Source: Liolophura sinensis
Taxonomy: Eukaryota > Mollusca > Polyplacophora > Chitonida > Chitonidae
Assembly: GCF_032854445.1 (NCBI RefSeq)
Contig: NC_088300.1
Location: forward strand, 81,892,101 to 81,956,100
Length of the DNA stretch: 64,000 nt
Direction: 5' to 3'
Both the position numbers and the translations under genes were made by a program. Numbering within the stretch: position 1 is the first letter of the stretch; each line of letters opens with the position of its first letter. Shown here piece after piece: positions 5,327 to 53,000 of this stretch. The notes under the pieces are model-generated. The model did not search any database. It was given only the letters and a program-made list of their open reading frames with translations, and was not told the DNA's origin.

Positions 5327-8300
5327 GTAAGGTCCTAACTAAATAATCATGCAGAACATGTGGGTCACTCTCTCAGGTAAGGTCTTAACTACATAAACAT
5401 GCAGAACATGTGGTCACACCTTCAGGTGAGACCTTCACCACATAAATGTGCAGAACATGTGCGTCAATTCCTCAGGTAAGGTCCTAACTACATAAACATG
5501 CAGAACATGTGGTCACACCTTCAGGTGAGGTCTTCACTACATAAACATGCGGAACATGTGGGTCACCCCATAAGGTAAGGCCCTAACCACAAAAACATGC
5601 AGAACATGTGGGTCACCCCCTAAGGTAAAGTCCTAACTACATAAACATGCAGAACATGTGGGTCACACCTTCAGGTGAGGTCTTCACTACATAAACATAC
5701 AGAACATGTGGTCACTCCCTCAGATAAGGTCCTGACTATATAAACATGCAGAACATGGTGTCACCCCCTCACAGACCCGTAGCTAGGATTTGTTGGAGGC
5801 ATGGGGGAAGAGCATTTCAGCCAAATGAGCCGGGCGTCCGGGGCTGCATCCACCGGAAAACTGGCATTGCTGGAAATGTTTTTGTCGCGTCAAAGCGTAA
5901 TTTTATATCTAACTTGAGGATAAGTTAAATGGCCTAAAATATTGTATTTTAGTAAGATTTGTATTCCTCATAGTCAAACGGGATCCTTAATGGCAGAGAC
6001 TTGCTGCTGTACCCGATTCAATAGATATGACATCTAACCATAATTACTCCCGCGGGTTGTAGTGCCAGACTTCCATGCCGGTGACCAGGGTTCGACCAGG
6101 GTCACCATGGCAGGGAATTTTCCCATTCCACCGCAGGCAATTTAGTGGTTAATTTAATGGGATTTGGTTATTCTTGAGTACGGCATAAAACACCAATCAA
6201 ATAAATAAATAAATCATGGGATTTGGTTGCGAGGTGGACGCCGCCGCTTGTAGAACTGTTCAAACGGGGCTGCTGTAAGGCAAGTGGGGAAGTAGTGAAG
6301 TAGATGATCAGTGGTTTACCCCGGTTTCTTCCAGGGGATACCTGCACCAACCTGACAATACTGAACCACTGTCATATGAGTAAAATACTCATGAGTATGG
6401 CATAAAACAACATTCAGTCAGTCAGTCAATCAAATATCTTACAGGATAATAAAATGTTAATTGAAACTGATTTTTGAAGCCCACCATTTGAGTAGTTGCT
6501 GTGACAACAAAATCTTTCATATATTATCATTCCAGCCTTAAAAAATGTATTTTAACTAACTTCTGTTTTCAACTTTCTTTAGTTCAAAAGAAACAGGATC
6601 TGTTACTTTTTAAAGTAAATCGGGTTCGCCATCCCTCCAAAGCAGCAAAAATTCCCGTAACAGAAAGCAGACTGTTTATCAGGGGTCATGCACTGTGGGT
6701 GGACTGAAAATAACTTCATACATCAAAATTGTGTAAGGTTTAATGGTAATCTGGGACTCAGTATTAAGCTGCAGTAAAAGTCAGTGCACCGGCATATTTG
6801 ACAAACTTTCACTTGAAAACACCCATTTTCAAAGCCAATTAAAAGGCTGAAATATTGCCTCTGGAGGTTAAACTGAAATTTTACATTGGGAAATCACTCT
6901 GCCTTCAAAACACTGTTCTAAGATGAACTGACGCTTCCTGGACAGAATATCTGAACTCAGCATGTTACTATGTCAAGTGCATCGCCATTCTAGGTGCTAC
7001 ATGCGTAATTTAAGATTTAATAGACCATAGACTGCCATTAATTTTTCATAAGAGACAGTGTAAGTTCAGCCCCAAACATGCTGGGGCCAATAAGTTTTGG
7101 TTCATACCTGGCCCAGCCTGTGAGAAAGAAGCCATAAAAATCTTGACATAGGTTGACCGTCAAACTCCGGACCTTTCTATGCCGGCAGCTGGGAGGGGTG
7201 CCTAGCAATGTCAAGGGGACGTCACTCGCAGCCTCGTCACATCCTTGTGTCTTCTCGCCTAGAATTTCAAACTTTCATCATTAAAACTCATACATGCCCA
7301 AAGCTTAGACAATTTCCATCATTTTGATACCAAGCATGAACCTGTACACCAAGAACGGCAGGCTGGCAGCAAAAAAAGACTTTCCACCCTGAAATGCACA
7401 GAATTACATTCCAGAAAAATGGAAGTTGCAATGGGGTCTGTGTCCAGTAAGCAATGGTTTGGCCAGGTCACAAAATTTGAGCGTTTGCACAGACATTTGT
7501 GCAGCCATTTGTGCAGCCAGCCTTTTTCTGGCACATCAGAAATCATGCATCAGGCATTCAAGATGTGTTAACTAACAGGTTTCCAATTTGAAAGTAATTC
7601 TCGGGAATTGGAAGCGAAAAATAACTGCACGTATGTACGAGATCATATTCCGATGGAATTATAGTGCATAGCATTGTTTTATTCGACAGAAAATTAAAAT
7701 ACGGAACAAAAAGTACTTTACAAAGGACATTTTTAGGCATGGCGCTAGGTACTGCGGATTCAAAGAGGCATGGCGGAGTGCCACTCAATAAAATGCTAGC
7801 TAGGGCTCTGCCTCAGGTAAAGTCCTAACTACAAAAACATGCAGAACATGGGGTCACTCCTTCAGGTAAGGTCTTACATACGTAAACGTGCTCAACATGT
7901 GGGTCACTCCCTCAGGTAAGGTCCTAACTACATGAACATGCAGAACAAGGGGTCACTCCTTCAGGTAAGGTCCTAACTATGTAAACATGCAGAACAAGGG
8001 GGCACTCCTTCAGGTGAGGTCCTAACTATGTAAACATGCAGAACATGTGAGTCACTCCTTTAGGTAAGGTCTTACATACGTAAACATGCAGAACAAGGGG
8101 TCACTCCTTCAGGTAAAGTCCTAACTATGTAAACATGCAGAACTTCGGGTCATCCCCTCAGGTAAAGTCCTAACTACAAAAAAATGCAGAACATGTGGGT
8201 CACTCCCTCAGGTAAGGTCTTCACTGCATAAACATGCAGAACAGGGGGTCACTCCTTCCGGTAAGGTCTTAACTACATAAACATGCAGAACATGGGGTCA

Positions 8301-11300
8301 CTTCCTGAAGTACTGTCTTATCTGCAAAAACGTGCAGAACATGGGCTCACACCTTCAGGTGAGGTCTTCACTACATAAACATGCAGAGCATGGCATCACT
8401 TCATCAGGTAAGGTCCCAACTACATAAATATGTAGAACATGTGGGTCACTGTCTCAGGTAAGGTCTTAACTACAAAAACATGCAGAACATGTGGTGGGTA
8501 ACTCCCTCAGGTTAGGTCTTAACTACATAAACATGCAGAACGTGGGGTCACTGTCTCAGGTAAGGTCTTAACTACGTAAACATGCAGAACATGGGCTCAC
8601 ACCTTCAGGTGAGGTCTTCACTACATAAACATGCAGAACATGGGGTCACACCTTCAGGTTAGGTCTTCACTACATAAACATGCAGAACATGTGGTCACAC
8701 CTTCAGGTGAGGTCTTTACTACATTAACATGCAGAACATGTGGTCACACCTTCAGGTAAGGTCTTAACTACATAAACGTGCAGAACATGTCACACCTTCA
8801 GGTGAGGTCTTTACTACATTAACATGCAGAACGTGGTCACACCTTCAGGTGAGGTCTTTACTACATTACCATGCAGAACATGTGGTCACACCTTCAGGTG
8901 AGGTCTTAACTACATAAACATGCACAGCATGGTGTCACTTCATCAGGTTAGGTTTCAGCTACATAAATATGTAGAACATGTGGGTCACTGTCTCAGGTAA
9001 GGTCTTAACTACAAAAACATCCATAACATGTGGTCACTTCCTCAGGATAGGTCTTAACAACATAAACATGTAGAACGTGGGTCACTGTCTCAGGTTAGGT
9101 CTTCACTACATGAACATGCAGAACAAGGGGGCACACCTTCAAGTTAGGTCTCAACTTCATAAACATACAGAAGATGGGGTCACTCCCTCAGGTAAGGTCC
9201 AAACTACAAAAACGTGCAGAACATGGGGTCACCTCCTCAGGTGAGGTCTTAACTACATTAACATGTGGAATATGTGGCCATCCCCACATGTCAGACTTTG
9301 AGGTCTTGGATTAGCTCCTCAGTATGGTGTTTTTGGCATTTCTGTTAGACATTTTACCTGCCATGAGGTTCAGTTTGCAGCACATTTTTAAATGTGATTT
9401 ATCTAAGATTGTGCCTTGATGAAAAGTGCTGGTTTTTGCACCGTCATCTTGTCTGTGTAATTAACAGGTCCTGCTGGCGCAGAGCAGCGACCAGGTTCTA
9501 CAAACTCTGCTCCTGACACCTGTAGAACATCCCCTGCAGGAAACACAGTCCGACCCTCAAGTGCCGACAGGTAAGGCCTCGTAGAAATAAGGTCACACAC
9601 AAAATACCATAATTTATTATGGATTGCCACAACTTGTCATGTAATGTCATGACATGTATTACATTATATTGTGTTGTGTAATGCCATATTTATTTATTTA
9701 TTTGTTTGATTGGTGTTTTACGCTGTACTCAAGAATATTTCACTTATACAACGACGGCCAGCATTATGGTGGTTGGAAACCAAGCAAAGCCCGGGGGGAA
9801 ACCGATGACCATCTGCTTACGGCCGGAGAGGAAGCCAGCATGAGCTGGACTTGAACTCACAGCGACCGCATTGGTGAGAGACACCTGGGTCATTATCCTG
9901 CGCTAGCGCGCTAACCAACTGAGCCACGGAGGCCCCTGTGTAGTGCCATTACTTGTTTTACCATATTGTGTTGTGTAAAACCACCACTTGTATTACCATA
10001 TTGTGTTGTGTAATGCCATACCTTACTGTGTATAATACCGTAAATAGTCCTACACATCCAGATATGTGAATTACCTACAATATTGTGCAGCAGTATCCAC
10101 TGTAAGGAATTACATGTGATGATATTCCAGGTTCTGTGCAAACCATGCATGCAACATTTGTCCAGCTTGTTTACTGTCCTATGTCTGTCTGTCCAGCCTG
10201 TTTACTATCCCCTGTCTGTTTGCCCAGCTTGTTTACTGTCCCATGTCTGTTTGTCCAGTGTGTTTACTGTCCCATGTCTGTTTGTCCAGCCTGTTTACTG
10301 TCCCATGTCTGTTTGTCCAGCGTGTTTACTGTCCCATGTCTGTTTGTCCAGCGTGTTTACTGTCCCATGTCTGTTTGTCCAGCCTGTTTACTGTCCCGTG
10401 TCCCAATTCTGTGTCCCAAAAGCAAAATCTAGCACATGGACATGTGGAAAACCAGCTGTATACACACTGTATGAGTTAAGTCTGAACCATTGCTGAACTA
10501 TGGATGAGCATAGTGAACACCAGCACCTCTACAAACTGACATCTTATTGATATAGACCTTGCCGCTTGGTACATTTCCATTTACAACCTATGTTGCTTTT
10601 ATTAAGTTACTTTTATTAAGATGGGAGTAATTTTTCCTTGGCGAGTATGAAACAAGTTCCTGTTACTATAAACAGCACTTGAGATGTGCTAGTGCTGCTA
10701 CGTCATACTCACCTGTCCACTGTCAAAGACAAATTAAATTTTATTTACCTTAAATTATTAATGACATTTGTACAACCTATACATGGAAGTGACTCTTGTT
10801 GATATTGTTGTTGCAGAGGAAGTCTTCCATAAACCCACATCTTGTCAAAAACGACATTTTCTCGTGATATTTAACATGGTCAGTTCACGCAAGTTTATTA
10901 CATTACACAGAACTCAGTGGGCTTACAATGGTTTTGTTTTACCTATCTCAATATGAACATGTAGTTTGCTGGTCATCTCTTCCGGGTGTAGGAGAAGTTT
11001 GCCACGTCATGTCAGCTACATGTAGGTGGAAATTACAATGAGCTGTAGCCAAGTCAGGCTTTCCAACTGCAGTGAATAGTTTTTCTTTGTCATCAAAAAG
11101 AATTTCTGCATGAGTTTTTCCTCAAAGGCTGGGGATCATTACGGTAATTTTTAGTTGATACCTGTATGTTGTTTTTTTTTTCTCCACAGTGTGCAGGTCA
11201 AAAAAGAGAAGGATACTGATTCTGATGGTTATGGGGCATTTCCCGCCTCCTGTAGTTTCGCAGAGAAACAGAATTCTGTGGTAAGACAGTCACGTATCTT

Positions 11301-12832
11301 GTAAAAATAATTTTATAATACTGGATTTCAGCTAAAGCTTGGTACATAAAAATGTGCTTTTGGAAACATGTAAGACCTTAAAATAATACTTTTGATACCA
11401 ACACTCAAGTTTTTCTAATAAGTAATTAATCAAACTTCATAAAGACCTTCTTAAGTGGCCCATACACATACAGTCAAACCTGTACCTACGGCCACATGTA
11501 ATCTGCCGCGACGAAACAATTTTCCATGTTCAACGACCTGTAATATGCAGGCACCTGTCCAACGCGTCCAGCGGCCAATATATTTCTATATCCAAATTCT
11601 ATATCAGCCTGTCCGGAGCGGCGAAGACTTTCAAAAGTAATGATGATTGCCGTATCGGACATTCAAAAATTTCAAAATGGCGACCACCCGATTTCAATAG
11701 TTTATGTAGTGATTAAAAGTTACAACCTGCCACTTTGTGATGACAAGTGAAGTGTGAACATTATTGGTCAGTAGCAGTGACTATTGTTCTTTAATCAGGT
11801 GTAGCTGGTTATTGTCCGGACACCCCTGCACTGTGGCAGTGGTTTAGCTCCATGCTGAGGTCCGCGCTATGAATGCCATAAACATCGGGCAGACTCCGAT
11901 ATAATCAGATATAATCTGACCTCCTGTGGCTCCTCCCATGAATGGTTTCTTTGACAAATTATCTGGCTTGCTTGTCCATTGTCTTTGCAGGCAAATGGTG
12001 CTGTGTTTTCATTTCGCGTGGCCAAAATATTGCCTGTACCGAACACATGGAGAAATTCTTCCTTCATTTGTACATGTTGTTGTTGTTGTTTCACTGATAA
12101 TGGCAGATATGATTGAACTTCTCAGCAGTCTGCCATTTACAACCCAAAACTTTGTTAGAATAGTCATCTATAGCTACGTAGGCCAAACTAGCACATGGTT
12201 TTTTAGAGCTTGACAATGATGGGAAGAAAGTTCTCCTGTCATGCGTTCCCTCACCTGAAACTCTTTCTGTAACTGGCTGTTAAATGCGTGAGATCCATAG
12301 GTCTGCCCCACAAAGCTTGAAATTATTGAGTTATTATTTTACTACAATTGTTGTATTTCTATGAAATTTATGTAGCTGACCAGATTAGTGCTTAACAATT
12401 ATGTATAAGATTATTATGTAGGCCTACATGTGTACATCTCCTGAAACTTAATTCAGTTGTGATTTGGCTTGGTCTTCACAACCTGTCTTATGTGGCCAAC
12501 TGTCATATGCGGCCACTTTTTACGTGTCCCTTCACTGGTCGCCTACAACAGGTTTGACCGTATATATATGGGTGTAAAAGTAAGATTTTCCTGCTGTGGA
12601 GAAATGATATAATAAAAAAACAAATAAACCTTCTCAACTTTCTATATCTTTGTATTCCGAGTGCTGATTTGAACATCTTGTTCTTATCAAGGATTGAAGC
12701 ATAACAGTTCGACAGGCTTTATATACGGAGATGTTTCCAGGGAGTAAATCGTCACTGGGACTAACAGTTAGACAGGCTTCATATATTCACATGTTTCCAG
12801 GGAGTAAATCGTCACATATATATATATATATG

Positions 12833-12875
<43 letters not shown>

Positions 12876-15800
12876 AGAGTTAATGTTCATTTTGGCTGTT
12901 GTGATGTGTATTGTGATCTTTTTCTGGGATCTTTACCGACAGTAGGCCTAAAATCTTGGGTTCGTTGGATACATTGAGTGTATCACACATCAAAACATGT
13001 CTGTTTTAGCCTTCAGAAACCTCCAGTCACAACTCGCATGGTGAATCTCAACCAAATGTCCCCTGGCGAGTAAACAATACCACTGACCACCTACCATCAG
13101 CTTTACTCCCTGAATCTGTAAGTTTCATATACTTCTGAATTTGATTTCCAGCTTTGAAAAAAACATAGAAAGTATATTATAAACCACCATGATTACTGGT
13201 ATAGCTCATGCTGTGTGAGGTAGATTTGTACTGGCATAGCTCATGCTGTGTGAGGTAGATTTGTACTGGCATAGCTCATGCTGTGTGAGGTAGATTTGTA
13301 CTGGCATAGCTCATGCTGTGTGAGGTAGATTTGTACTGGTATAGATCATGCTGTGTGAGATAGATTTGTACTGGCATAGCTCATGCTGTGTGAGATAGAT
13401 TTGTACTGGCATAGATCGTGCTGTGTGAGATAGATTTGTACTGGCATAGATCATGCTGTGTGAGATAGATTTGTACTGGTATAGCTCATGGTGTGTGAGA
13501 TAGATTTGTACTGGTATAGCTCATGCTGTGTGAGGTAGATTTGTACTGGTATGTGAGTTGATGCTGTGTGAGGTAGATTTGTACTGGTATATGAGATGAT
13601 GCTGTATGGGGTAGATTTGTACTGGAATGGATCGTGCTGTGTGGGGTAGATTTGGACATGTACTGGTATGTCATGAATATGATGTCATGCTGTGTGAGAT
13701 ATATTTGTACTGGTATAGCTCATGCTGTGTGAGATAGATTTGTACTGGTATAGCTCATGGTGTGTGAGATAGATTTGTACTGGTATAGCTCATGCTGTGT
13801 GAGATAGATTTGTACTGGTATAGCTCATGGTGTGTGAGATAGATTTGTACTGGTATAGCTCATGCTGTGTGAGGTAGATTTGTACTGGTATGTGAGTTGA
13901 TGCTGTGTGAGGTAGATTTGTACTGGTATATGAGATGATGCTGTATGGGGTAGATTTGTACTGGAATGGATCGTGCTGTGTGGGGTAGATTTGGACATGT
14001 ACTGGTATGTCATGAATATGATGTCATGCTGTGTGAGATATATTTGTACTGGTATAGCTCATGCTGTGTGAGGTAGATTTGTACTGGCATAGCTCATGCT
14101 GTGTGAGATAGATTTGTACTGGCATAGCTCATGCTGTGTGAGGTAGATTTGTACTGGTATATGAGTTGATGCTGTGTGAGGTAGATTTGTGCTGGTATAT
14201 GAGTTGATGCTGTGTGAGATAGATTTGTACTGGTATAGATGATGCTGTGTGAGGTAGATTTGTACTGGCATAGCTCATGCTGTGTGAGGTAGATTTGTAC
14301 TGGTATAGATCATGCTGTTTGAGATAGATTTTTACTGGCATAGATCATGCTGTGTGAGATAGATTTGTACTGGTATAGATCATGCTGTGTGAGGTAGATT
14401 TGTACTGGTATAGATCATGCTGTGTGAGGTAGATTTGCACAGGTACTGGTATGTCATGTATATGAGTTGATGCTGTGTGAGGTAGATTTGTACTGGTATA
14501 GATCATGCTGTGTGGTGTAGATTTGCACATGTACTGGTATGTCATGTATTCGAGTTGATGCTGTTTGTGGTAGATTTGTACTGGTATAGATCATGCTGTG
14601 TGGGGTGTGTATATGAGATGACTAGTATGTCATGTGTACGAGGTGATGCTGTATGAAGTAAAATCATTGTCGTAGATATTCTGTCAGATGGAGGCTTATA
14701 TTGGGATACTGTGTCCAGTTGTAGGAAATTTGCCTGGTTGTAATATTGTTAAGTACTGTGAAATCATTTTCCAGTATAGACTTTTCTTTTCTAGTCAATA
14801 AAGCTTCTATGAAGTATGTATTCAGTTTGGAAGTTCACTGGGAGGCAAGTGCTGGTAGAGTATGGGTAATATTAGCAATCTGCAGTGTTTACAACCAATA
14901 TCTATCCCATGCTTCGCATGTTTGTACAGATGTCGGAGGATAACCTAGAGGCAGCCTTGCGCTCCTTGTCTGAAGATGGGCTGTCATTCGGTATGGCAGG
15001 CCCTGGTGGTGGAGGGACCCAGGCCATGCCCCACCACCTGCCGGCCCCTTCCAAACACATGGACTCGCCAGACCCCAGTGAGGATTACTGTGCCTGCTGT
15101 CATAATGGGGGAGAGCTACTGTGTTGTGACTACTGCCCCAAGGTGTTCCACTTCCAGTGTCACATACCTGCTGTTACTGTGGCACCCAGGTAAATCAATC
15201 TCATTCCAGTGTCAAATACATGCTATTGCTGTAGCACCTAGGTAACTACATCATTCCAGTGTCACATACCTACTGTTACTGTGGCATCGAGGTGACTACA
15301 TGTACCTCATTCCAGTGTCACATACCTCCTGTTATTGTGGGGCCTAGGTAACTACATATACCTCATTCCAGTGTGACATGCATGCTGCTACTGTGCCATC
15401 CAGGTAATTACCGCATTCCAGTGTCATATACCTGGTGTTAATGTGGCACCCAAGTAACTACCTCATTCTAGTGTCACATACCTGCTGTTACTGTGACACC
15501 AAAGTAATTACCTCATTCCAATGTCACATACCTGCTGTTACTGTGGCACCTAAGTAATTACCTCATTCCAGTGTCACATACCTGCTGTTACTGTGACACC
15601 TAAGTAATTATCTCATTCCAGTGTCACATACCTGCTGTTACTGTGGCACCTAAGTAATTACCTCATTCCAGTGTCACATACCTGCTGTTACTGTGACACC
15701 TAAGTAATTACCTCATTCCAATGTCCTCAGTCGGTTAGCGCGGTAGCGCAGCGTAATGACCCAGGAGCCTCTCACCAATGCGGTCGCTGTGAGTCCAGCT

Positions 15801-18800
15801 CATGCTGGCTTCCTCTCCGGCCGTAGGTGGGAAGGTCTTCAGCAACCTGTGGATGGTTGTGGGTTTCCCCCGGGCTCTGCCCGGTTTCCACCCACCATAA
15901 TGCTGGCCGCTGTCGTATAAGTGAAATGTTCTTGAGTACGGCATAAAACACCAATCAAATAAATAAATCATTCCAATGTCACATACCTGCTCTTACTGTG
16001 GCACCTAAGTAATTACCTCATTTTAGTGTCACATACCTGCTGTTACTGTGACACCTAAGTAATTACCTCATTCCAGTGTTAAAAACCTGCTGTTACTGTG
16101 GCACCTAAGTAATTACCTCATTCCAGTGTTGAATACCTGCTGTTACTGTGGCACCTAAGTAATTACCTCATTCCAGTGTTAAATACCTGCTGTTACTGTG
16201 GCACCTAAGTAATTACCTCATTCCAGTGTTAAATACCTGCTGTTACTGTGGCACCTAAGTAATTACCTCATTCCAGTGTTAAATACCTGCTGTTACTGTG
16301 GCACCTAAGTAATTACCTCATTCCAGTGTTAAATATCTGCTGTTACTGTGGCACCCAAGTAACAACCTCATTCCATTGTCACATACTGGCTGTTACTGTG
16401 GGGCCTAGGTAACTACATATACCTCATTCCAGTGTCACATGCATGCTGTTACTGTGACACCTAAGTAATTACCTCATTCCAGTGTCATATACCTGCTGTT
16501 ACTGTGACACCTAAGTAATTACCTCATTCCAGTGTCACATACCTGCTGTTACTGTGACACCTAAGTAATTACCTCATTCCAGTGTTAAAAACCTGCTGTT
16601 ACTGTGGCACCTAAGTAATTACCTCATCCCAGTGTTAAATACCTGCTGTTACTGTGGCACCTAAGTAATTGCCTCATTCCAGTGTTAAATACCTGCTGTT
16701 ACTGTGGCACCTAAGTAATTACCTCATTCCAGTGTTAAATACCTGCTGTTACTGTGGCACCTAAGTAATTACCTCATTCCAGTGTTAAATACCTGCTGTT
16801 ACTGTGACACCTAAGTAATTACCTCATTCCAGTGTTAAATACCGGCTGTTACTGTGGCACCTAAGCAGTTACCTCATTGCAGTGTTAAATAATTACCTCA
16901 TTCCAGTGTTAATTACCTGCTGTTACTGTGGGACCCTGATAACACCTCTGATATGTAACCCAGACTGTCCCCTGATCATGCTTCTCTCCTTTGTTACAGT
17001 GGCAGCTGGCGATGCACCTTAAGTGTACCAGACTGATAACTCTTCTGATATGTAACCCAGACTGTCCCCTGATCATGCTTCTCTCCTTTGTTACAGTGGC
17101 AGCTGGTGATGCACCTTAAGTGTACCAGACTGATAACTCTTCTGATATGTAACCCAGACTGTCCCCGATCATGTTTCTCTCCTTTGTTACAGTGGCAGCT
17201 GGCGATGCACCTTAAGTGTACCAGACTGATAACTCTTTTGATATGTAACCCAGACTGTCCCCTTATCATACTTCTCTCCTTTGTTACAGTGGCAGCTGGC
17301 GATGCACCTTAAGTGTACCAGACTGATAACTCTTCTGATATGTAACCCAGACTGTCCCCTGATCATGCTTCTCTCCTTTGTTACGGTGGCAGCTGGCGAT
17401 GCACCTTAAGTGTACCAGACTGATAACTCTTCTGATATGTAACCCAGACTGTCCCCTGATCATGCTTCTCTCCTTTGTTACAGTGGCAGCTGGTGATGCA
17501 CCTTAAGTGTACCAGACTGATAACTCTTCTGATATGTAACCCAGACTGTCCCCGATCATGTTTCTCTCCTTTGTTACAGTGGCAGCTGGCGATGCACCTT
17601 AAGTGTACCAGGCTGATAACTCTTTTGATATGTAACCCAGACTGTCCCCTTATCATACTTCTCTCCTTTGTTACAGTGGCAGCTGGCGATGCACCTTAAG
17701 TGTACCAGACTGATAACTCTTCTGATATGTAACCCAGACTGTCCCCTGATCATGCTTCTCTCCTTTGTTACGGTGGCAGCTGGCGATGCACCTTAAGTGT
17801 ACCAGACTGATAACTCTTCTGATATGTAACCCACACTGTTGCCTGATCAAGCTTCTGTCCTGCATTACATTGACAGCTGGTGATGCACCTTCAGTGTACC
17901 AGACTGATAACTCTTTTGATATGTAACCCAGAATGTCCCTTGATCATGCTTTTTTCCTGTGTTACAGTGGCAGCTGGCGATGCACACTCAGTGTACCAGA
18001 CGATCAGGTCCGCATTGAGAAGGAAGAGTCCCGACAGATCATTAATGCAGGCAACAAGCGCAAGTCCCTTGTGGGGCTCACAGATAAGGAGCGTAGGGTG
18101 AGACTTTCACAACCTCACAATTGTGGGTAATTTGTGCAAATAGATATAACAAATTTGAAAAATACTATTTTTAAACTTTTATTTTTTGGGGTCTTCAAGT
18201 CATCTCCTTGAAGGGTAAAAAAAAATGAGATCCAGAAGGCTTTCTGTGAGCACAAACCACCACCGCAGCCAAGTAAAAAAATGTGTCAAGGGGACAATGT
18301 GGTGATACTGTCCATTACTGATGTGTCTGTCAGTGATGGGAGTGGTACTAAAAATTAAGACAGAGGAACAATACTCTCTGTTACTGTCTTGTCTGTCAGT
18401 GGTGAGGAATGGTGCTAAAAGTTAAGACAAAGGAACAATACTCTCTGTTACTGTCTTTGTCAGTGATGGGAGTGGTGCTAAAAATTAAGACAGAGGAAAA
18501 ATGCTCTCTGTTACTGTCTTGTCTGCCAGTGGTGAGGAATGGTACTAAAACTTAAGACAAAGGAACAATACTCTCCATTACTGTACTGTCTGTCAGTGGT
18601 GAGAAATGTTGTTAAAAATTAAGACAAAGGACAATACTCTCTGTCACTGTCTTGTCTGTCAGTGGTGAGGAGTGGTACTAAAACTTAAGACAAAGGAACA
18701 ATACTCTCCATTACTGTCCTGTTTGTCATTGGTGAGGAATGCTGTTAAAAATTAAGACAAAGGATCAACACTCTCCATTACTGTCAATGGTGGGGAGTGG

Positions 18801-21800
18801 TCTTAAAAATTAAGACAAAGGGACAGTACACTCCATTACTGTCCTGTCAATTGTGAGGAATGGTGCTTCAGACTTCTGGATCCCAGTCCAGATGACCCCC
18901 AAAATTGGATGGATTGGTCCTTAACCCAAGACTAACCTGTGCACAAAACTTCATCCAAATCTCTTCGTCATGTAAAGCAGACAGTGGTAGATACAGCATA
19001 CAGATTGATACACACAGACAGACAATGGCAAATACAGCATACAGATTGATACACGCAGACAGACAGTGGCAGAAACAGCATACAGATTAAAACACAGATA
19101 GTGACAGATACAGAATACCGATTCATACACACAGACAGACATTGGCAGATACAGCATACAGATTGATACACAGACAGACAGTGGCAGACACAGCATACAA
19201 ATTGATAGACACACAGACAGTGGCAGACAGCATACAGATTGATACACACAAACAGTGACAAATACAGCATACAGATTGATACACACAGACAAACAGTGGC
19301 ACATACAGCATACAGATTGATACACACAGACAGTGGCAGATACAGCATACAGATTGATACACACAAACAGTGGCAGATACAGCATACAGATTGATACACA
19401 CAAACAGTGGCAGATACAGCATACAGATTGATACACACAAACAGTGACAGATACAGCATACAGATTGATACACACAAACAGTGGCAGATACAGCATACAG
19501 ATTGATACACACAGACAGACAGTGGCACATACAGCATACAGATTGATACACACAGACAAACAGTGGCAGACACAGCATACAGATTGATACACACAGACAG
19601 ACAGTGGCAGATACAGCATACAGATTGATACACACAGACAGTGGCAGATACAGCATACAGATTGATACACACAGTGGCAGACACAGCATACAGATTGATA
19701 CACACAGACAGACAGTGGCAGATACAGCATACAGATTGATACACACAGACAGACAGTGGCAGACACAGCATACAGATTGATACACACAGACAGTGGCAGA
19801 TACAGCATACAGATTGATACACACAGACAGACAGTGGCAGACACAGCATACAGATTGATACACAAACAGTGGCAGATACAGCATACAGATTGATACACAC
19901 AGACAGCGGCAGATATAGCATACAGATTGATACACACAAACAGTGGCAGATACAGCATACAGATTGATACACACAGACAGACAGTGGCAGATACAGCATA
20001 CACATTGATACACACAGACAGACAGTGGCAGATACAGCATACAGATTGAAATACACTAACAGTGGCAGATACAGCATAGAGATTTAAACAGACAGACAGT
20101 GGCAGACACAGCATACAGATTGATACACACAGACAGACAGTGACAGACACAGCATACAGATTGATACACACAGACAGTGGCAGACACGGCATAGAGATTT
20201 AAACAGACAGACAGTGGCAGACACAGCATACAGATTGATACACACAGACAAACAGTGGCAGACACAGCATACAGATTGATACACAGACAGACAATGGCAG
20301 ACACAGCATACAGATTGATACACACAGACAGACAGTGGCAGACACAGCATACAGATTGATATGCACAGACAGACAGTAGCATATACAGCATACAGATTGA
20401 TACACACAGACAGACAATGGCAGATACAGCATACAGATTGGTGCATACAGAAAGTGTAAGACACAGCATACAGATTGATACACACAGACAGTGGCAGACA
20501 CAGCATACAGATTGATACACACAGACAGACATGAGCAGATACAGCATACAGATTGGCGCACACAGACAGTGTAAGACACAGCATACAGATTAATACACAC
20601 AGTGGCAGACACAGCATACAGATTGATATACACAGTGGCATTCACAGCATACAAATTGATACACAGACAGACGAGCAGATACAGCATACAGGTTGGCGCA
20701 CACAGACAGTGTAAGACAGCATACAGATTGATACACACAAACAGACAGTGACAGGCACAGCATACAGATTGATACACACAGACAGTGGCAGATACAGCAT
20801 ACAGATTGATACACACAGACAGACAATGGCAGACTCAACATACAGAATGATACAGTCAAACAGAAAATAACATACAGCATACAGATTGGTGCACACAGAC
20901 AGTGTAAGACACAGCATACAGATTGATACACACAGACAGACAGTGGCAGACACAGCATACAGATTGATACACACAGACAGTGGCAGATACAGCATACAGA
21001 TTGATGCACACAGGCAAGATGACGTAAAGCTGAGGGACAGACCCAAAGAGAGATAAATACAGAGACCCCCAGATGTAAAACTGAGGGACAGACCCAAAGA
21101 GGGTTAAAAAAAAGAGACCCCCAGACGTAAAGCTTAGGGACAGACAGCCAGAAAGATGGAGACACAGAAGAACCAGATGTAAAGCTTAGAGACAGGCCCA
21201 CAGAGACCCAGACCTATAGGAGAGGGACTGGCCCACAGAGAGATGAACCCATATGATGAGACACCAGACCTAAAGTTGAAAGACAGGCCCACAGAGAGAT
21301 GGGCACACAGAGACACCAGACATAAAACTGAGAGACAAACATACATGCACATACAGAGACAGCAAGTAACACATAACCTTGGCACCTTTGCAGCTTCTTG
21401 AGGCCAGTTCTGTTTCCACACGTCTGTGATCTCTGTGTACAATTAAAAAATGGTATGTAAAGCATATGCATATATTATATGTCTAAAGTTTACCAAAGGG
21501 CAAATAATGCCCTCCATGTACATGTACTGTCAGCTGAGCACTCAAGGATCTGAGTAATCCTCTGTTCCTAGGCCTGTGAGAGAATCCTGTTAGAGTTGTT
21601 TTCCCATGAAGCAAGTACACCCTTCCATGAGCCAGTCAGTAAATCGGTAAGTCATTCAATGGTGGATATTACAAGCTCTCAGCAAATCTAAATTTAACAT
21701 TTCTGTCCCATGTATTATTAGTGTGTAGTGCTCTGATCAGTCAGCTCACTGTTGATCATACATGCATTTGCGTTTTAATAAAGGAACATCATCATTCAGG

Positions 21801-25129: not shown

Positions 25130-25875
25130 ATGGACCATACATCTGTAATTTCCCAAATGGTCTATACATCTGTCGTTACCACTAATGGCCCATACATAAT
25201 CACTAGTGGATCCTACATCTGCCATTATCACTAATGGTTCATACATCTGTCGTTATCACTAATGGTTCATACATCTGTCATTATCACTAATGGGGGCCTC
25301 CGTGGCTCAGTCGGTTAGCGTGCTAGCGCAGCGTAATGACCCAGGAGCCTCTCACCAATGCGGTCGCTGTGAGTTCAAGTCCAGCTTATGCTGGCTCCGT
25401 CTCTGGCCGTAAGTGGGAAGGTCTGTCAGCAACCTGCGGATGGTCGTGGGTTTCCCCCGGGCTGTGCCCGGTTTCCACCCACCATAATGCTGGCCGCCGT
25501 CGTATAAGTGAAATATTCTTAAAACACCAATAAATAAATCAATATCGCTAATGGTCCATACATCTGTCATTATCACTAATGGTTCATACATCTGTCGTTA
25601 TCACTAATGGTCCTTACATCTGTCATTATCACTGATGTCCATACATCTGTCATTAGCACTAATGGTCCGTACATTATAACTTATGGTTCATATATCTGTC
25701 ATTATCACTTATGGTCCATACATCTGTTACTATCACTAATGGTCCACACATCTGTTATTATCACTAATGGTCCATACATCTGGCATTTATCTCTAATGGT
25801 CCATACATCTGTCATATCCACTGATGGTCCATACATCTGTCATTACCGCTAATGGTCCATACTTTATATCTGTCA
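25130..25875. repeat. Tandem array, about 28-bp unit, about 18 copies
   Basis: Units 'aatggtccatacatctgtca' plus 'ttatcact'; split by a SINE. Confidence 0.92.
25294..25539 (+). mobile_element. Full-length tRNA-derived SINE
   Basis: Starts gggcctccgtggctcagtcg, with B-box-like 'gagttcaagtcc', and ends aaaacaccaataaataaat. Flanks cattatcactaatgg / caatatcgctaatgg look like a diverged duplication. Confidence 0.88.
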
Positions 25876-29910: not shown

Positions 29911-29911
29911 G

Positions 29912-33884: not shown

Positions 33885-36580
33885 GACTACATGTACTCTG
33901 TCACAGTGACATTCTGCTGTGATAGTGTGCAAGCTTCAGCCCCATATTGTGCCTCCACGATCACTGTAATCAAAGAGTGTCCAGCCAGGTGACTACTCTG
34001 CCATAGTGTAACCTATTCTGCTGTGATAGTGTGCATGGTTCAGCCCCATATTATGTCTCCACGATCACTGTAATCAAAGAGTGTCCAGCCAGGTGACTAC
34101 TCTGGCATAGTGTAACCCATTCTGCTGTGACAGTGTGCATGGTTCAGCCCCATATTGTGCCTCCATGATCACTGTAATCAAAGAGTGCCCAGCCAGGTGA
34201 CTACTCTGCCATAGTGTAACCCATTCTGCTGTGACAGTATGCATGGTTCAGCCCCATATTATGTCTCCATGATCACTGTAATCAAAGAGTGCCCAGCCAG
34301 GTGACTACTCTGCCATAGTGTAACCCATTCTGCTGTGATAGTGTGCATGGTTCAGCCCCATATTATGTCTCCATGATCACTGTAATCAAAGAGTGCCCAG
34401 CCAGGTGACTACTCTGCCATAGTGTAACCCATTCTGCTGTGATAGTGTGCATGGTTCAGCCCCATATTGTGCCTCCATGATCACTGAATCAAAGAGTGCC
34501 CAGCCAGGTGACTACTCTGCCATAGTGTAACCCATTCTGCTGTGACAGTGTGCAGGGTTCAGCCCCATATTGTGCCTCCATGATCACTGAATCAAAGAGT
34601 GCCCAGCCAGGTGACTACTCTGCCATAGTGTAACCCATTCTGCTGTGATAGTGTGCATGGTTCAGCCCCATGTTATGTCTCCATGATCACTGTAATCAAA
34701 GAGTGCCCAGCCAGGTGACTACTCTGTCATAGTGTAACCCATTCTGCTGTGACAGTGTGCAGGGTTCAGCCCCATATTGTGCCTCCATGATCACTGAATC
34801 AAAGAGTGCCCAGCCAGGTGACTACTCTGCCATAGTGTAACCCATTCTGCTGTGACAGTGTGCAGGGTTCAGCCCCATATTGTGCCTCCATGATCACTGA
34901 ATCAAAGAGTGCCCAGCCAGGTGACTACTCTGCCATAGTGTAACCCATTCTGCTGTGATAGTGTGCATGGTTCAGCCCCATATTGTGCCTCCATGATCAC
35001 TGAATCAAAGAGTGCCCAGCCAGGTGACTACTCTGCCATAGTGTAACCCATTCTGCTGTGACAGTGTGCAGGGTTCAGCCCCATATTGTGCCTCCATGAT
35101 CACTGAATTAAAGAGTGCCCAGCCAGGTGACTACTCTGCCATAGTGTAACCCATTCTGCTGTGACAGTGTGCAGGGTTCAGCCCCATACTGTGCCTCCAT
35201 GATCACTGTAATCAAAGAGTGCCCAGCCAGGTGACTACTCTGCCATAGTGTAACTCATTCTGCTGTGACAGTGTACAGGGTTCAGCCCCATATTGTGCCT
35301 CCATGATCACTGTAATCAAAGAGTGCCCAGCCAGGTGACTACTCTGCCATAGTGTAACCCATTCTGCTGTGATAGTGTGCATGGTTCAGCCCCATATTGT
35401 GCCTCCATGATCACTGTAATCAAAGAGTGCCCAGCCAGTTGACTACTCTGCCATAGTGTAACCCATTCTGCTGTGATAGTGTACATGGTTCAGCCCCATA
35501 TTGTGCCTCCATGATCACTGTAATCAAAGAGTGCCCAGCCAGGTGACTACTCTGCCATAGTGTAACCCATTCTGCTGTGACAGTGTGCAGGGTTCAGCCC
35601 CATATTGTGCCTCCATGATCACTGAATCAAAGAGTGCCCAGCCAGGTGACTACTCTGCCATAGTGTAACCCATTCTGCTGTGATAGTGTGCATGGTTCAG
35701 CCCCATATTGTGCCTCCATGATCACTGTAATCAAAGAGTGCCCAGCCAGGTGACTACTCTGGCATAGTGTAACCCATTCTGCTGTGACAGTGTGCAGGGT
35801 TCAGCCCCATATTGTGCCTCCATGATCACTGAATCAAAGAGTGCCCAGCCAGGTGACTACTCTGCCATAGTGTAACCTATTCTGCTGTGATAGTGTGTAG
35901 GGTTCAGCCCCATATTTTGCCTCCACAATCTAGGGTTCAGTAGGGTTCAGCCCCCTGCTGTGCCTCCATGGTCACTGAGTGCACAGCCTGTTGACTCTTC
36001 TGTATCATAGTATAGCCCTTTCTTCTGAGACAGTGTGTAGGGCTCAGCCCCATGTTGTGCCTCCATGGTCATTCTGGTCATTGAGTGCACAGCTAGGTGA
36101 CCATTCTATGTCACAGTGCAGCCCATTCTGCTGTGAAAGTGCGTAGGGCTCAGCCCCATGCTGTGCCTCCATGGTCACAAAGTGAACAGCTTCGTGAACT
36201 CTCTCTGTCACTGAGTACACAGCCAGGTGACTATTCTATGTCACAGTGCAGCCCATTCTGCTGTGACAGTGCGTAGGGTTCAGCCCCATTCTGTGCCTCC
36301 ATGGTCACTGAGTGAACAGCTAGGTGACCTCTCTGTGTCACTGAGTACACAGCCAGGTGACTATTCTATGTCACAGTGCAGCCCATTCTGCTATGACAGT
36401 GCGTAGGGTTCAGCCCCATGCTGTGCCTCCATGGTCACTGAGTGAACAGCTAGGTGACCTCTCTGTGTCACTGAGTACACAGCCAGGTGACTATTCTATG
36501 TCACAGTGCAGCCCATTCTGCTGTGACAGTGCGTAGGGTTCAGCCCCATGCTGTGCCTCCATGGTCACTGTAGTCGCTGA
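33885..36580 (-). repeat. Array copied from the KCTD C-terminal coding tail, 102/104-bp unit
   Basis: About 20 units of 102 or 104 bp, then about four units of 130 bp next to the gene. Each unit, read on the minus strand, contains sequence matching the KCTD codons for TVTMEAQHGAE and LSQQN (for example 'gaggcacaatatggggctga'). 130-bp units carry an extra 26-bp inner duplication (gtgaacagctaggtgac). The KCTD stop lies in the first unit. Confidence 0.93.
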
Positions 36581-37270
36581 GTGCACAGCCAGGAACCAGC
36601 GGTCACGGTGACTCTGCTCTATCATCAGGTTGCTCATTAGAGACTTTGTATCACAGCCAGATGAAGACGACATTTTTGAGTTGTCCAGACTCCAGCCTGT
36701 GGCATGCAGATACTCGCCCAGCTGTAAGCGGGTGTTACAACCATTCAGCTCCAGCTCCATGAACTCTGTCCCACTCTTCTTCAGCAGTTTCTCCTTACCC
36801 TCCTCCCCGATAATCAATGTAGGCAAGGACAACAACACGCGGGCCTGGCCAGACACCACAGTCTTCACTCGTGCGTTCTTCGTGGGAATTGTGGCCATTG
36901 AGCCCACACGAACTTCAATCACCTCAATGAAATGTCCACACCTCAAGTATTTCCTGTCCTGCTCAGACTTGAGTCTCTTCACCTCTCTCAGCAGCGGTTG
37001 TATTTGGTAAAAGTCGGCCTCGGTCAGCAGCAGGTCAAGGTCCTTAAAATCAGCCGGCAGAGACAGACGTGAAGAACGCAGAAAGTTCAGAACGTACCTG
37101 AAAATACTACCATCTCTGTCAATGAAGTAGTTGCCATTGGAGTCCTTTGAGGTGGGGAAAGCTCCGCTGAACATGGCTCCTATCATGGAATCTGGATATC
37201 GTGTCAAGGTTAACTTTGTGGTCATGTAAATACATCCTCCCACATTCAGGTGGATTATATCCTGGGCCAT
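36491..37270 (-). CDS. KCTD-family BTB/T1-domain protein
   Basis: 259 codons in one exon; ATG at 37,270 in a good context (GCCATGG). Residues about 4-100 form a T1-type BTB domain: IHLNVGG, YPDSMIGAMFSG, NYFIDRDGSIFRYVLNFLR, EADFYQIQPLL. KCTD proteins use this domain to form pentamers, commonly as Cullin-3 adaptors or G-beta-gamma binders. The C-terminal part (EVRVG..., ELNGCN..., SLMSN) looks most like KCTD1/15 or KCTD6/21; I cannot settle which. The last 29 or so residues lie inside the first unit of the tandem array that follows, so the natural C-terminus may have been altered by array growth. A 5' untranslated exon upstream is possible. Length fits the family. Confidence 0.9.
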   Translation of the reverse strand: MAQDIIHLNVGGCIYMTTKLTLTRYPDSMIGAMFSGAFPTSKDSNGNYFIDRDGSIFRYVLNFLRSSRLSLPADFKDLDLLLTEADFYQIQPLLREVKRLKSEQDRKYLRCGHFIEVIEVRVGSMATIPTKNARVKTVVSGQARVLLSLPTLIIGEEGKEKLLKKSGTEFMELELNGCNTRLQLGEYLHATGWSLDNSKMSSSSGCDTKSLMSNLMIEQSHRDRWFLAVHSATTVTMEAQHGAEPYALSQQNGLHCDIE

Positions 37271-37925: not shown

Positions 37926-37929
37926 GAAT

Positions 37930-44257: not shown

Positions 44258-44529
44258 GATGTAAGAACGTTTGTATCAACTTCTGATATGCAAACAGCTC
44301 GACGTACATTCTATCCCGTTTCATCAGTTTGTATGGATGGATAACTTCTGATTTAGGCCTACTGGTTTGCAAATTTTCACCGCTGTGCCTTTTGACATCG
44401 TTTTCTCACAAACCTTTTAAATTTAATTGGCTTTCAAGAAAACAGGACTGGTTGGTCCTGCGTCAATATAAGATTGCTTGGGGTGTCATGCCTGGTGTCT
44501 TCATCATGAAATCATCATGAGCCAAGTGT

Positions 44530-46010
44530 GGTAACTACTAGGTAGTGTATCCATGGAAGCCTGGGTGTGGAGTAGAATACCAGATCGCATGATGGCACCC
44601 ATGGAAGCCTGGGTGTGAAGTAGAATGCCTGATCTCATCATGGTACCCATGGAAGCGGGGCCTCCGTGGCTGAGTTGGTTAGCGCACTAGCGCAGCGTAA
44701 TGACCCAATAGTCTCCCACCAGTCGCTATGAGTTCAAGTCCAGCTCATGCTGGCTTCCTCTTCGGCCATAAGTGGAAAGGTCTGTCAGCAACCTGTGTAT
44801 GGTCGTGGGTTTCCCCCGGACTCTGCCCGGTTTCCACTCACCATAATGCTGGCCTCCGTCAAACAAGTGAAATATTCTTGAGTACGGCGTAAAACACCAA
44901 TCAAAAAAAAAAAAAACCCATGGAAACCTGGGTATGGATCAGAATACCAGATCACATGACAGCACCCATGGAAGCCTGGATGTGGATCAGAATGCCAGAT
45001 CACATGATGGCACCCATGGAAGCCTGGATGTGGATCAGAATACCAGATCACATGACGGCACCCATGGAAGCCTGGATGTGGATCAGAATGCCAGATCACA
45101 TGATGGAAGCCTGGATGTGGATCAGAATACCAGATCACATGATGGCACCCATGGAAGCCTGGATGTGGATCAGAATGCCAGATCACATGATGGCACCCAT
45201 GGAAGCCTGGATGTGGATCAGAATACCAGATCACATGACGGCACCCATGGAAGCCTGGATGTGGATCAGAATGCCAGATCACATGATGGAAGCCTGGATG
45301 TGGATCAGAATACCAAATCACATGATGGTACCCATGGAAGCCTGGATGTGGATCAGAATAACAGATCACATGATGGCACCCATGGAAGCCTGGATGTGGA
45401 TCAGAATGCCAGATCACATGATGGTACCCACAGAAGCCTGGGTTTGGATCAGAATACCAAATCACATGATGGTACCCATGGAAGCCTGGATGTGGATCAG
45501 AATAACAGATCACATGATGGCACCCATGGAAGCCTGGATGTGGATCAGAATGCCAGATCACATGATGGAAGCCTGGATGTGGATCAGAATACCAGATCAC
45601 ATGACGGCACCCATGGAAGCCTGGATGTGGATCAGAATACCAAATCACATGATGGTACCCATGGAAGCCTGGATGTGGATCAGAATAACAGATCACATGA
45701 TGGCACCCATGGAAGCCAGGGTGTGGATCAGAATACCCGATCACATGACTGCACCCATGGAAGCCTGGATGTGGATCAGAATGCCAGATCACATGATGGC
45801 ACCCATGGAAGCCTGGATGTGGATCAGAATACCCGATCACATGACTGCACCCATGGAAGCCTGGATGTGGATCAGAATGCCAGATCACATGATGGAAGCC
45901 AGGGTGTGGATCAGAATACCAGATCACATGATGGTACCCATGGAAGCCTGGATGTGGATCAGAATGCCAGATCATATGATGGCACCCATGGAAGCCTGGA
46001 GGCGGATCAG
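44530..46010. repeat. Tandem array, 48/36-bp unit, about 28 copies
   Basis: Units 'gatgtggatcagaataccag' plus 'atcacatgatggcacccatg' plus 'gaagcctg'; short units drop 12 bp. Both lengths are multiples of three, giving 396-codon ORFs on both strands that are not genes. Confidence 0.95.
44658..44916 (+). mobile_element. Full-length tRNA-derived SINE
   Basis: Starts gggcctccgtggctgagttg, has B-box-like 'gagttcaagtcc', and ends gagtacggcgtaaaacacca plus an A-run. Flanked by cccatggaag / cccatggaaa (these words also occur in the array). Confidence 0.88.
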
Positions 46011-46138
46011 TGAGCTATTTCTCAAAGGGATCGTAACGTTACACTGGTCACAAATGCCAAGGAGACGTATGCAATTGGCATGCGACGTCATGGTGATTAG
46101 GCCAGCGTAACGTTACAACCCCTTTAAGAAACAGCCCC
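46011..46138. mobile_element. MITE, 128 bp, 3-bp target duplication
   Basis: Left end tgagctatttctcaaaggg + cgtaacgttac mirrors the right end gtaacgttacaacccctttaag + aaacagcccc. CAG flanks both sides and removing the element restores the array word 'gatcagaataccag'. The 3-bp duplication would fit PIF/Harbinger, but the family is uncertain. Confidence 0.7.
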
Positions 46139-46165
46139 CAGAATACCAGGTCACATAATGGCAAT

Positions 46166-46297
46166 ATTTATTTGATTGATGTTTTACGACATACTCAGGA
46201 ATATTTCATACGATGGCGTCCAGCATTATTGTGGGAGGAAACTGAGCAGATTCTGGACGAAACCCATGACCATTCGCACGTTGCTGGCAGACCTTTC
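46166..46297 (-). mobile_element. 5'-truncated SINE, minus orientation
   Basis: 'tatttatttgattgatgttt' through 'gttgctggcagacctttcc', a diverged copy of the SINE 3' half. Confidence 0.75.
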
Positions 46298-47195
46298 CAC
46301 ATACCCATGATGGCATTAGAATTCTATCAACTATACAAGTGAACACATTTTCTGACTTCTGAGTGACATGTTTTATTTTGTTCTCTTCATATTAATCATA
46401 AAATCCCATAATCAGCACCAATGACATCATGCCTCCACTATCATTAAGTTCCTGGGTAGATAGGAAGAGTAGTACTTAAAGACTGATGGAAGGGTAAAAT
46501 CAATGTAAACCTCCAAACAAAATGCAGGAGACAGTTGTGACCGTGCATCAACCATAACCCATGTGTTTCACAACTGACAAATAACTACCGTCCCAACATC
46601 AGGTAACAAAGCACACTTTGCCAAGTTATAGACACAACCTGGGCAAAAATGTGGCCATAATCTGGGTTGTTCTATACCATATTATAAGACAAAGGTCAAC
46701 AAATTAGGCTGTACAAGAGTAAAGGAAAGCAATGAACGCGATGACAAACACAAACCACCTGTACTCACAGAGCGATACAACACGGCTTGCCTGCACACAT
46801 TTATGGATATATCAAAAATATATATAGTTGAATATTCAAAGGATAATGTAAACTCTAATACATATAATTGTGATCGCAAATTGATGAAAGTGACAACGAA
46901 CGCAAACTGCATAGCAGGTATAAAGGCCCAAAAACATGCATAGCTGATAACACACAGTGATGTACATGTAGGCCTACCAAAGAGATAATTCACACTGATA
47001 CACACTTGAGACCTCATACAATGACAAATTTGATACATACTTCCGTCATATATATCAACATTTAATAAATAATCACAGGTACAAATTATGTAAATTGAGT
47101 ACAATGTATCTTAAAGGTGAGATATAAGCAGAAATTATGTCGAGGCCTTGGAATCCCCATAAATGATACGGTATTCACCATGGCTGAATAACTTT
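46298..47195. other. Unique AT-rich sequence
   Basis: A 140-codon minus ORF (46,682-47,104) has no recognisable domain and a Cys/Ile/Tyr-rich make-up typical of AT-rich non-coding DNA. Confidence 0.45.
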
Positions 47196-47199
47196 AAAT

Positions 47200-49935: not shown

Positions 49936-50019
49936 TCAGTGGTTGAAAGTTTTGAAGACACACTTGTCAAGTTTTGACTTCCAGGAGAAGTAGTGGTCAA
50001 ATCTGCTTATGGAGTATTC
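49936..50019 (-). CDS. CHKA/CHKB-like: Choline kinase exon 9, C-terminus
   Basis: 84 bp including TGA, acceptor gttttaaacag. It reads EYSISRFDHYFSWKSKLDK, matching DYAQARFDAYFHQKRKLGV at the end of human CHKA, plus eight further residues. Confidence 0.92.
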   Translation of the reverse strand, partial: EYSISRFDHYFSWKSKLDKCVFKTFNH

Positions 50020-53000
50020 CTGTTTAAAACCAAATACAATAATTCAGGAGAACACAATATACAAGTATGCCCCAGAAAAATAGATTTGTTTGTAATGTAT
50101 GGGGTAAATGAATACCAGCTCAGCGTTGTGATGAGTATTATTAACTATGACGGAAAGTACTTCATGGGTTTTGATGATTGGTCTTCGTATAAATTGAAAT
50201 CGAAAAAGTATACATGAAACATCACATCAGTATCTATGTATCCACCAAAGTATAAAATAATTTAAGATATAGTCCGGACACAATTACAGTGAGATAAAAA
50301 CAGATAGAAAAAAATTACTAAAAAATTACCAAAATCTGCTTCGCCTGATGGCCATGGGTGTATAAAAATAGACCAATGTGAGGCGTGACACATTACATCT
50401 GTAAATACATTCATACATCAACCAAAAAACAAAACAGCTGGAGTAGTAGCCGGGACATCAAGTTCGAGCTCAAGCTTCTACAGAAGACATAACATGTGTA
50501 AAGTGCCGTGGAGACTAGCTATAGGAAAGTTGCATACTTCTAGATAATGGACTTCTGACAGAATATATAGGGAAACTGGTGATCTAGTAACCATGACAAT
50601 TGTGGAAATGAACAAATGCAAGTTGATATCAGAGGAGCAGCCCTGCACAAATGCCCAAGTTCCTCACCAGAGCTTATCCCCTCCCTTACCACATCATCAA
50701 AGTTGATATCAGAGGAGCAAGCCTCGACGAGTACCCGGGTTCTCCATCTGAGCTTATCCTATCCCTTACCACTTCATCATAGTTGACATCAGAGGAGCAG
50801 GCCTTCACGAGTGTCCAGGTTCTCCAACAGAGCTTATCCCCTCCCTGATTACATCATCAAGGTTTATATCAGAGAAGCAGGCCTTGATGAGTGTCCAGGT
50901 TCTCCAACAGAGCTTATCCCCTCCCTGATTACATCATCAAGGTTTATATCAGAGAAGCAGGCCTTGATGAGTGTCCAGGTTCTCCAACAGAGCTTATCCC
51001 CTCTCTTACCACATTGCTAAACTTGGTATCAGAGGAGCCCTGGTTCCCCAACAAACCTTATCCCCTCCCTGATTACATCATCAAGGTTTATATCAGAGAA
51101 GCAGGCCTTGATGAGTGCCCAGGTTCTCCAACAAACCTTATCCCCTCCCTGATTACATCATCAAGGTTTATATCAGAGAGGCAGGCCTTGATGAGTGTCC
51201 AGGTTCTCCAACAAACCTTATCCCCTCCCTGATTACATCATCAAGGTTTATATCAGAGGAGCAGGCCTTGATGAGTGTCCAGGTTCTCCAACAAACCTTA
51301 TCCCCTCCCTGATTACATCATCAAGGTTTATATCAGAGGAGCAGGCCTTGATGAGTGTCCAGGTTCTCCAACAAACCTTATCCCCTCCCTGATTACATCA
51401 TCAAGGTTTATATCAGAGAAGCAGGCCTTGATGAGTGTCCAGGTTCTCCAACAAACCTTATCCCCTCCCTGATTACATCATCAAGGTTTATATCAGAGAA
51501 GCAGGCCTTGATGAGTGTCCAGGTTCCCCAACAAACCTTATCCCCTCCCTGATTACATCATCAAGGTTTATATCAGAGAAGCAGGCCTTGATGAGTGTCC
51601 AGGTTCTCCAACAGAGCTTATCCCCTCTCTTACCACATTGCTAAACTTGGTATCAGAGGAGCCCTGGTTCCCCAACAAACCTTATCCCCTCCCTGATTAC
51701 ATCATCAAGGTTTATATCAGAGGAGCAGGCCTTGATGAGTGCCCCGGTTCTCCAACAAACCTTATCCCCTCCCTGATTACATCATCAAGGTTTATATCAG
51801 AGGAACAGGCCTTCACGAGTGCCCAGGTTCCCCAACAAACCTTATCCCCTCCCTGATTACATCATCAAGGTTTATATCAGAGGAGCAGGCCTTGATGAGT
51901 GTCCAGGTTCTCCAACAAACCTTATCCCCTCCCTGATTACATCATCAAGGTTTATATCAGAGAAGCAGGCCTTGATGAGTGTCCAGGTTCTCCAACAAAC
52001 CTTATCCCCTCCCTGATTACATCATCAAGGTTTATATCAGAGAGGCAAGCCTTGATGAGTGTCCAGGTTCTCCAACAAACCTTATCCCCTCCCTGATTAC
52101 ATCATCAAGGTTTATATCAGAGAAGCAGGCCTTGATGAGTGTCCAGGTTCTCCAACAGAGCTTATCCCCTCCCTGATTACATCATCAAGGTTTATATCAG
52201 AGAGGCAGGCCTTGATGAGTGTCCAGGTTCTCCAACAAACCTTATCCCCTCCCTGATTACATCATCAAGGTTTATATCAGAGGAGCAGGCCTTGATGAGT
52301 GTCCAGGTTCCCCAACAAACCTTATCCCCTCCCTGATTACATCATCAAGGTTTATATCAGAGAAGCAGGCCTTGATGAGTGTCCAGGTTCTCCAACAAAG
52401 CTTATCCCCTCTCTTACCACATTGCTAAACTTGGTATCAGAGGAGCCCTGGTTCCCCAACAAACCTTATCCCCTCCCTCACCATATCATCAAAGTTGGTA
52501 TCAGAGGAGCAGCCCTGCATGAGTGCCCTGGTTACCCACCAAAGCTTATTCCCTCCCTCATCACATTATCAAAGTTGGTATCAGAGGAGCAGGCCTTCAC
52601 GAGTGCCCAGGTTCACCAGTACAGCTTATCCCCTCCCTCACAAAATCATAAAAGTTTATATCACAGGAGCGGGCCTTGACAGGTGCTCAAGTTCCCCACC
52701 AGAGCTTATCCCCTCCCTAACCACATCATCAAAGTTGGTATCAAAGGAGCAGGCCTCCACGAGTGCCCAGTAACCCAATCAGAGCTTATCCCCTCCCTTA
52801 CCACATAATCAAAGTTGATATCAGAGGAGCAGGCCTGGACAAGTGCCCAGGTTCCCCACCAGAAACTGGAAGCAAGAGCGAACATGTCCGTCTCCTGATT
52901 CATCTGGGCCAGTTCCTCCGTCTTCACCTCTGAGCTGCCATCCCGTGTCTGGATGTACTCACAGAAGAAAACATACTGTAAATAAAACACAGTAAGGTTG

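Follow-up and report, generated by a model that had tools for sequence, protein, structure and literature searches.

Minisatellites built from splice borders in a chiton genome, and their likeness to the mirages of amphioxus

In the amphioxus genes for Adh3, the globins BflGb6 and BflGb9, troponin C and PGBD5, excerpts from two reports describe 'mirages', minisatellite-like tandem duplications that lie over an intron/exon border (PMC3087553, PMC3902484). According to these excerpts, mirages occur on the donor or the acceptor side, have units that measure 10-72 base pairs (bp) for Adh3 and, for the globins, 150-160 bp, and contain many copies with AG/GT signals; the boundary units escape homogenisation and splicing is regular. 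Here, we describe arrays of this type in a 64,000-base stretch of DNA (the window) from the chiton Liolophura sinensis, a minisatellite-rich region that contains a TRIM33-like gene on the forward strand and, on the reverse strand, a KCTD6/21-like gene and a choline kinase gene. A first-pass annotation of the window had observed that arrays in two genes on opposite strands copy the borders of neighbouring exons and knew of no named process behind them; by the excerpted reports, the structure had already been named in lancelets.

Judged by their sequence, the chiton arrays are mirage-type minisatellites, a known and named kind. Like the amphioxus examples in those excerpts, they have units that span the border, their authentic border is an end unit, and many copies, but not all, keep GT or AG. 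Unlike them, they reside in a mollusc and not a cephalochordate, they reach 10-39 aligned copies as opposed to the 3 and 6 given for two BflGb6 haplotypes, and they include an intron in which both borders have been duplicated and the two arrays meet, an arrangement that differs from the excerpted cases. A limited literature search returned no report of chiton tandem repeats or minisatellites and no mirage outside the lancelets among the matches listed (15 of 73 for one query).

Other described systems are also comparable. Human IFI6 (6-16) has a minisatellite of splice donor sites, credited to Turri et al. 1995 (PMC4526556); the chiton tandem units likewise offer donor sites, but in IFI6 the units farther downstream are reported to serve as donors in messenger RNA, a use of which the chiton DNA and protein models give no sign. 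Introns can also be gained when a tandem duplication spanning an intron-exon border supplies the splice signals, as discussed with a potato RdRp case (PMC4974935); in contrast to that case, the chiton introns appear to have existed already and to have been lengthened. Internal tandem repeats at exon-intron boundaries are also described in human segmental duplications, where they alter introns (PMC2812944). Minisatellites sit at borders in the chiton too; however, the human repeats of that excerpt belong to recent primate-specific paralogues with changed transcripts, and the chiton arrays to conserved genes whose models use the authentic borders.

The border-crossing arrays of the window are as follows.

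5279..5771, forward strand: first part of array D1, unit of about 50 bp made of a TRIM33 exon end and its 5′ splice site (CAG|GTAAGG); border at 5326/5327
7813..9265, forward strand: second part of D1, same unit of about 50 bp
15152..16935, forward strand: array D2, 50 bp unit of 38 exon and 12 intron bases; donor at 15189/15190
16936..18001, forward strand: array A3, 97 bp unit of 64 intron bases (polypyrimidine tract, TTACAG) and the exon start; acceptor at 17967/17968
50620..52861, reverse strand: array D4, 80 bp unit; the array takes in 60 bases of the choline kinase exon together with its donor; border at 52802/52801

In each of these four arrays, three at donors and one at an acceptor, the unit combines exon and intron sequence of the adjoining border, and the genuine splice border is the end unit. 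Centred on the exon-intron junction at 5,326/5,327, the D1 unit combines about 40 exon-derived bases with 10 from the intron, and the Tandem Repeats Finder call for its first part spans 5,323-5,771; its two parts, separated by an insertion of about 2 kilobases (kb) but otherwise one array, together hold 39 aligned copies beyond the authentic one, 36 of which have GT at the donor position. D2 has 29 aligned copies beyond the authentic one, with GT in 27 but the site mostly weakened, A3 has 10 (AG in 7), and D4 has 28 further copies, some of them partial (GT in 8). D2 and A3 abut, such that the 2,778-base intron at 15,190-17,967 consists of these two arrays plus a short interspersed element (SINE); the last 50 bases of D2, which fall between the Tandem Repeats Finder calls at 15,152-16,885 and 16,936-18,001, are D2-like. 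The border arrays now make up 1.9 to 2.7 kb of their host introns. When the two outermost units at each end were compared with central units for their likeness to the other units, the outermost were the less similar ones in 13 or more of 16 cases; the effect is clear in D4 (0.76-0.82 versus 0.889), slight in D2, and mixed in D1 and A3.

To place these arrays among all repeats of the window, we merged those Tandem Repeats Finder rows (129 in total) that had a period of at least 20 and a score of at least 140, dropping lower rows. The resulting 36 arrays cover 33,573 of the 64,000 bases (52%), which is high given that the same program flags 9.21% of the genome of another chiton, Acanthochiton rubrolineatus, in the excerpted report (PMC11545220), although the thresholds differ. 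Two Liolophura sinensis proteins, the TRIM33-like P0002 and the choline kinase alpha-like P0242, served to map the exons, and all 17 introns refined in this way have GT-AG ends, with 0 mismatches in the residues flanking the junctions. The unit of every array was then locally aligned with 45 exonic bases from all 34 splice edges, 1,224 alignments in total. An array is paired with its own adjacent edge in each of the five top scores (70, 56, 53, 45 and 40), two of which come from the two halves of D1; the best score below these is 24, and the 99th percentile is 21. The match between arrays and edges is far above chance, because every top score falls on the array's own edge and the next is only 24. 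The observations of the first-pass annotation hold up well here: the identity to neighbouring exon borders is real in both genes, the exon mapping bears out three arrays of an exon end plus 5′ splice site and one of a 3′ splice site plus exon start, and its coordinates differ from the recomputed ones by at most about 60 bases. Its remark that many other arrays have no exon match likewise agrees with the remaining 31 merged arrays, including one at the KCTD-like gene, none of which exceeds a score of 24 with any of the splice edges.

The direction of copying can be addressed in D1. The TRIM33 exon beside it carries CCCACTTCAG, 10 bases that code for PTSG, and this sequence is in 0 of the 39 aligned D1 copies. 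The open reading frame P0001 of a near relative (86% identical) presumably comes from another chiton and has an exon that likewise ends in PQPTSG. Because the D1 copies lack these bases and the P0001 exon has the same end, the exon edge is supported as the source of the array, which is consistent with the earlier proposal that the arrays touch the true border and were seeded by it. The P0001 reading frame continues from the exon into the D1 intron, and we compared it by back-translation, counting informative positions compatible with the window: 25 of 28 agree in the exon and 8 of 9 at intron positions +1 to +10, but only 2 of 12 from +11 on, where random stretches of the window give a mean of 3.85 of 12. 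The first extra D1 copy in Liolophura begins at intron position +11 or +12. Because compatibility falls where that copy starts, these few positions suggest that the D1 array is missing in the P0001 relative, at least beside the exon; the shared exon end and intron start suggest that the intron is an older one.

We consider it probable that these structures arose when stretches of a region rich in minisatellites underwent ordinary tandem duplication in place, which was tolerated where the copies landed in an intron and was followed by growth of the array. Specifically, a tract of 50-97 bp straddling a splice border would have been duplicated in tandem by chance, as were other tracts of the region. 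The extra copy would have landed on the intron side, leaving the message unchanged as long as the border beside the intact exon kept splicing, and slippage or unequal exchange would then have multiplied and partly homogenised the copies; the chemistry of the duplication is one that we infer.

The first-pass annotation had instead proposed a mechanism that favours exon borders. To examine this, the 17 merged intronic arrays were reduced to 15 by joining two same-unit pairs that share an intron, and tracts of equal length were randomly placed on introns in simulations with three sets of intron lengths, all from this one window. Four of the 15 arrays cross a border. With array-free lengths of the arrays' own introns, the expectation is 2.99, or 3.32 with the 2-kb insertion removed (P(≥4) = 0.323 and 0.423); with array-free lengths of all introns it is 2.05, or 2.39 with the insertion removed (P(≥4) = 0.137 and 0.205). 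Against expectations of 2.0-3.3 (P 0.14-0.42), then, the four crossings do not sustain the earlier proposal. Present-day intron lengths give expectations of 0.71 and 1.01 (P = 0.004 and 0.015), but this null is too strict because it counts the arrays' own growth as pre-existing target. Duplication directed to borders by a transcription- or splicing-linked process, such as R-loops or RNA-templated repair, could draw on this last result, on the intron duplicated at both ends, and on the recurrence of similar structures in the amphioxus excerpts. We nevertheless regard it as unlikely: the excess is not significant with array-free lengths, and if the ancestral intron was short, any tract would be likely to cross a border, the chance being 0.56 and 0.87 for the two arrays of the doubly duplicated intron (worked by hand from the placement formula). 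Moreover, 0 of the 36 merged arrays in the window lie wholly within a coding exon, which fits selection acting on random seeds. It is similarly doubtful that, in minisatellite-rich molluscan genomes, borders are preferred seeds of tandem duplication from which introns grow inward until, like the one at 15,190-17,967, they are made of copies of their own two borders.

A second alternative is that the copies function, either as a series of donors or acceptors among which splicing could choose, as in IFI6, where the excerpted report has downstream repeat units acting as splice donors (PMC4526556), or as ratchet points for recursive splicing, given that D1 units carry AG|GT. The D1 copies offer some encouragement: scored with an ad hoc weight matrix, 24 of 39 reach at least 11, with the true donor at 11.9. 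By the same matrix most D2 copies score 2.8 and the true donor 8.5; in D4, the site is lost in most copies, the donor-position GT surviving in only the eight noted above. In all four arrays, however, the splice-motif columns are conserved about as well as the rest of the unit or less well (motif versus rest: D1, 0.898 and 0.897; D2, 0.921 and 0.934; A3, 0.957 and 0.972; D4, 0.872 and 0.925). Use of a GT-bearing donor copy in place of the true border would add an in-frame stop in 36 of 36 cases in D1, 27 of 27 in D2 and 7 of 8 in D4 (70 of 71), the eighth D4 copy shifting the frame into a later stop; the A3 copies with AG would add a stop in 7 of 7. Plain alternative use thus leads to a stop in all 78 copies examined, a test that covers replacement of the true border and not recursive splicing, in which the extra sequence is taken out again. 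In the Liolophura protein models it is the authentic sites that are joined. Use of the copies as alternative splice sites is therefore not supported, and we find a functional role of either kind very improbable. Because the motif is no better conserved and use of the copies brings stops, they look like passengers, intronic filler, and correct splicing would consequently have to rely on exon context. The protein models imply correct splicing; that it also holds in vivo, we infer.

That the repeats were inflated or misplaced during assembly is scarcely credible, even though one mirage of amphioxus is reported to have been wrongly assembled in a draft of its genome (PMC3087553), since substitutions distinguish many of the units, mobile elements with flanking duplications of array sequence interrupt two arrays, and the identity at the authentic border is independent of copy number.

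Several observations nonetheless tell against ordinary local duplication. The four observed crossings are somewhat above every expectation, and the excess is nominally significant with the present-day lengths. Neutral decay does not demand that D1 keep GT in 36 of 39 copies with strong scores in 24, although the rest of its unit is equally kept. The divergence of end units is uneven: two of the four D1 end units equal the central mean (0.84), and one A3 end unit exceeds it (0.96 versus 0.949). Finally, the P0001 comparison extends over eight back-translated codons past the border, and early intron bases are constrained in any case.

These arrays, in which as many as 39 copies could be aligned, add a mollusc to the animals with boundary-spanning minisatellites. 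They provide a countable test case for the lengthening of introns and for how the splicing machinery bypasses dozens of near-perfect decoy sites, and a genome-wide count in the chiton would bear on whether borders are special or merely tolerated.

A fifth array, at the end of a coding sequence, may have formed by the same local duplication.

36491..37270, reverse strand: KCTD6/21-like gene, a single coding exon with stop TAG
33910..36599, reverse strand: KCTD array, units of about 104 bp; the end unit carries the stop of the KCTD-like gene and the codons just before it

This array contains 26 further whole or partial copies, and its end unit would still supply the C-terminal codons and the stop. 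The earlier reading that it copies the coding tail was correct: tested separately, the tail scores 47 (36,491-36,535) and 74 (36,536-36,600) against its own array and at most 22 and 18 against the other 35. WFLA, close to where the conserved part ends, is followed by 31 residues that the end unit (36491-36597) encodes; this tail is absent from ten aligned homologues, whose ends are shorter or different. The array may thus supply a coding tail to the KCTD-like protein, the translation of that tail being a prediction.

The two genes that host the border arrays were mapped as follows.

3673..23908, forward strand: TRIM33-like gene, from the P0002 match, with stop TGA
3673-4896, 5077-5326, 9468-9570, 11190-11280, 13010-13117, forward strand: TRIM33-like exons
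14930-15189, 17968-18097, 21572-21646, 23095-23247, 23636-23908 (stop TGA), forward strand: TRIM33-like exons, continued
49936..61142, reverse strand: choline kinase alpha-like gene, from the P0242 match, with stop TGA
61142-61027, 60223-60001, 59675-59542, 59303-59193, 59007-58949, reverse strand: choline kinase exons
55751-55667, 54288-54180, 52975-52802, 50019-49936 (stop TGA), reverse strand: choline kinase exons, continued

P0002 maps to the window except for its first 51 residues, which lie outside it, such that coordinate 3673 marks the start of the protein match and not a mapped border. P0242 and the KCTD-like protein P0122 are free of mismatches inside exons; P0122 is encoded by the window itself and hence adds no independent evidence. 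The TRIM33 intron at 4897-5076 (isoform X2) is open in frame, so that read-through is possible, and the P0001 reading frame runs across it with conserved residues; for these reasons it is probably an optional (retained) intron.

Two of the border arrays have also received mobile elements.

5772..7810, strand not assigned: insertion splitting D1; its terminal inverted repeats, CAGACCCGTAGCTAGGATTT / CAGAGCCCTAGCTAGCATTT, are imperfect, and its 5-bp target duplication is CCTCA
15726..15967, forward strand: SINE-like element within D2, flanked on either side by the 13-bp target duplication TCATTCCAATGTC

The insertion at 5772-7810 looks like a DNA transposon, a class assigned from its ends alone. 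Relatives of the SINE-like family are found elsewhere in the window, at 25314-25520, 44678-44908, 9702-9915, 22716-22847, 46168-46304 and other positions.

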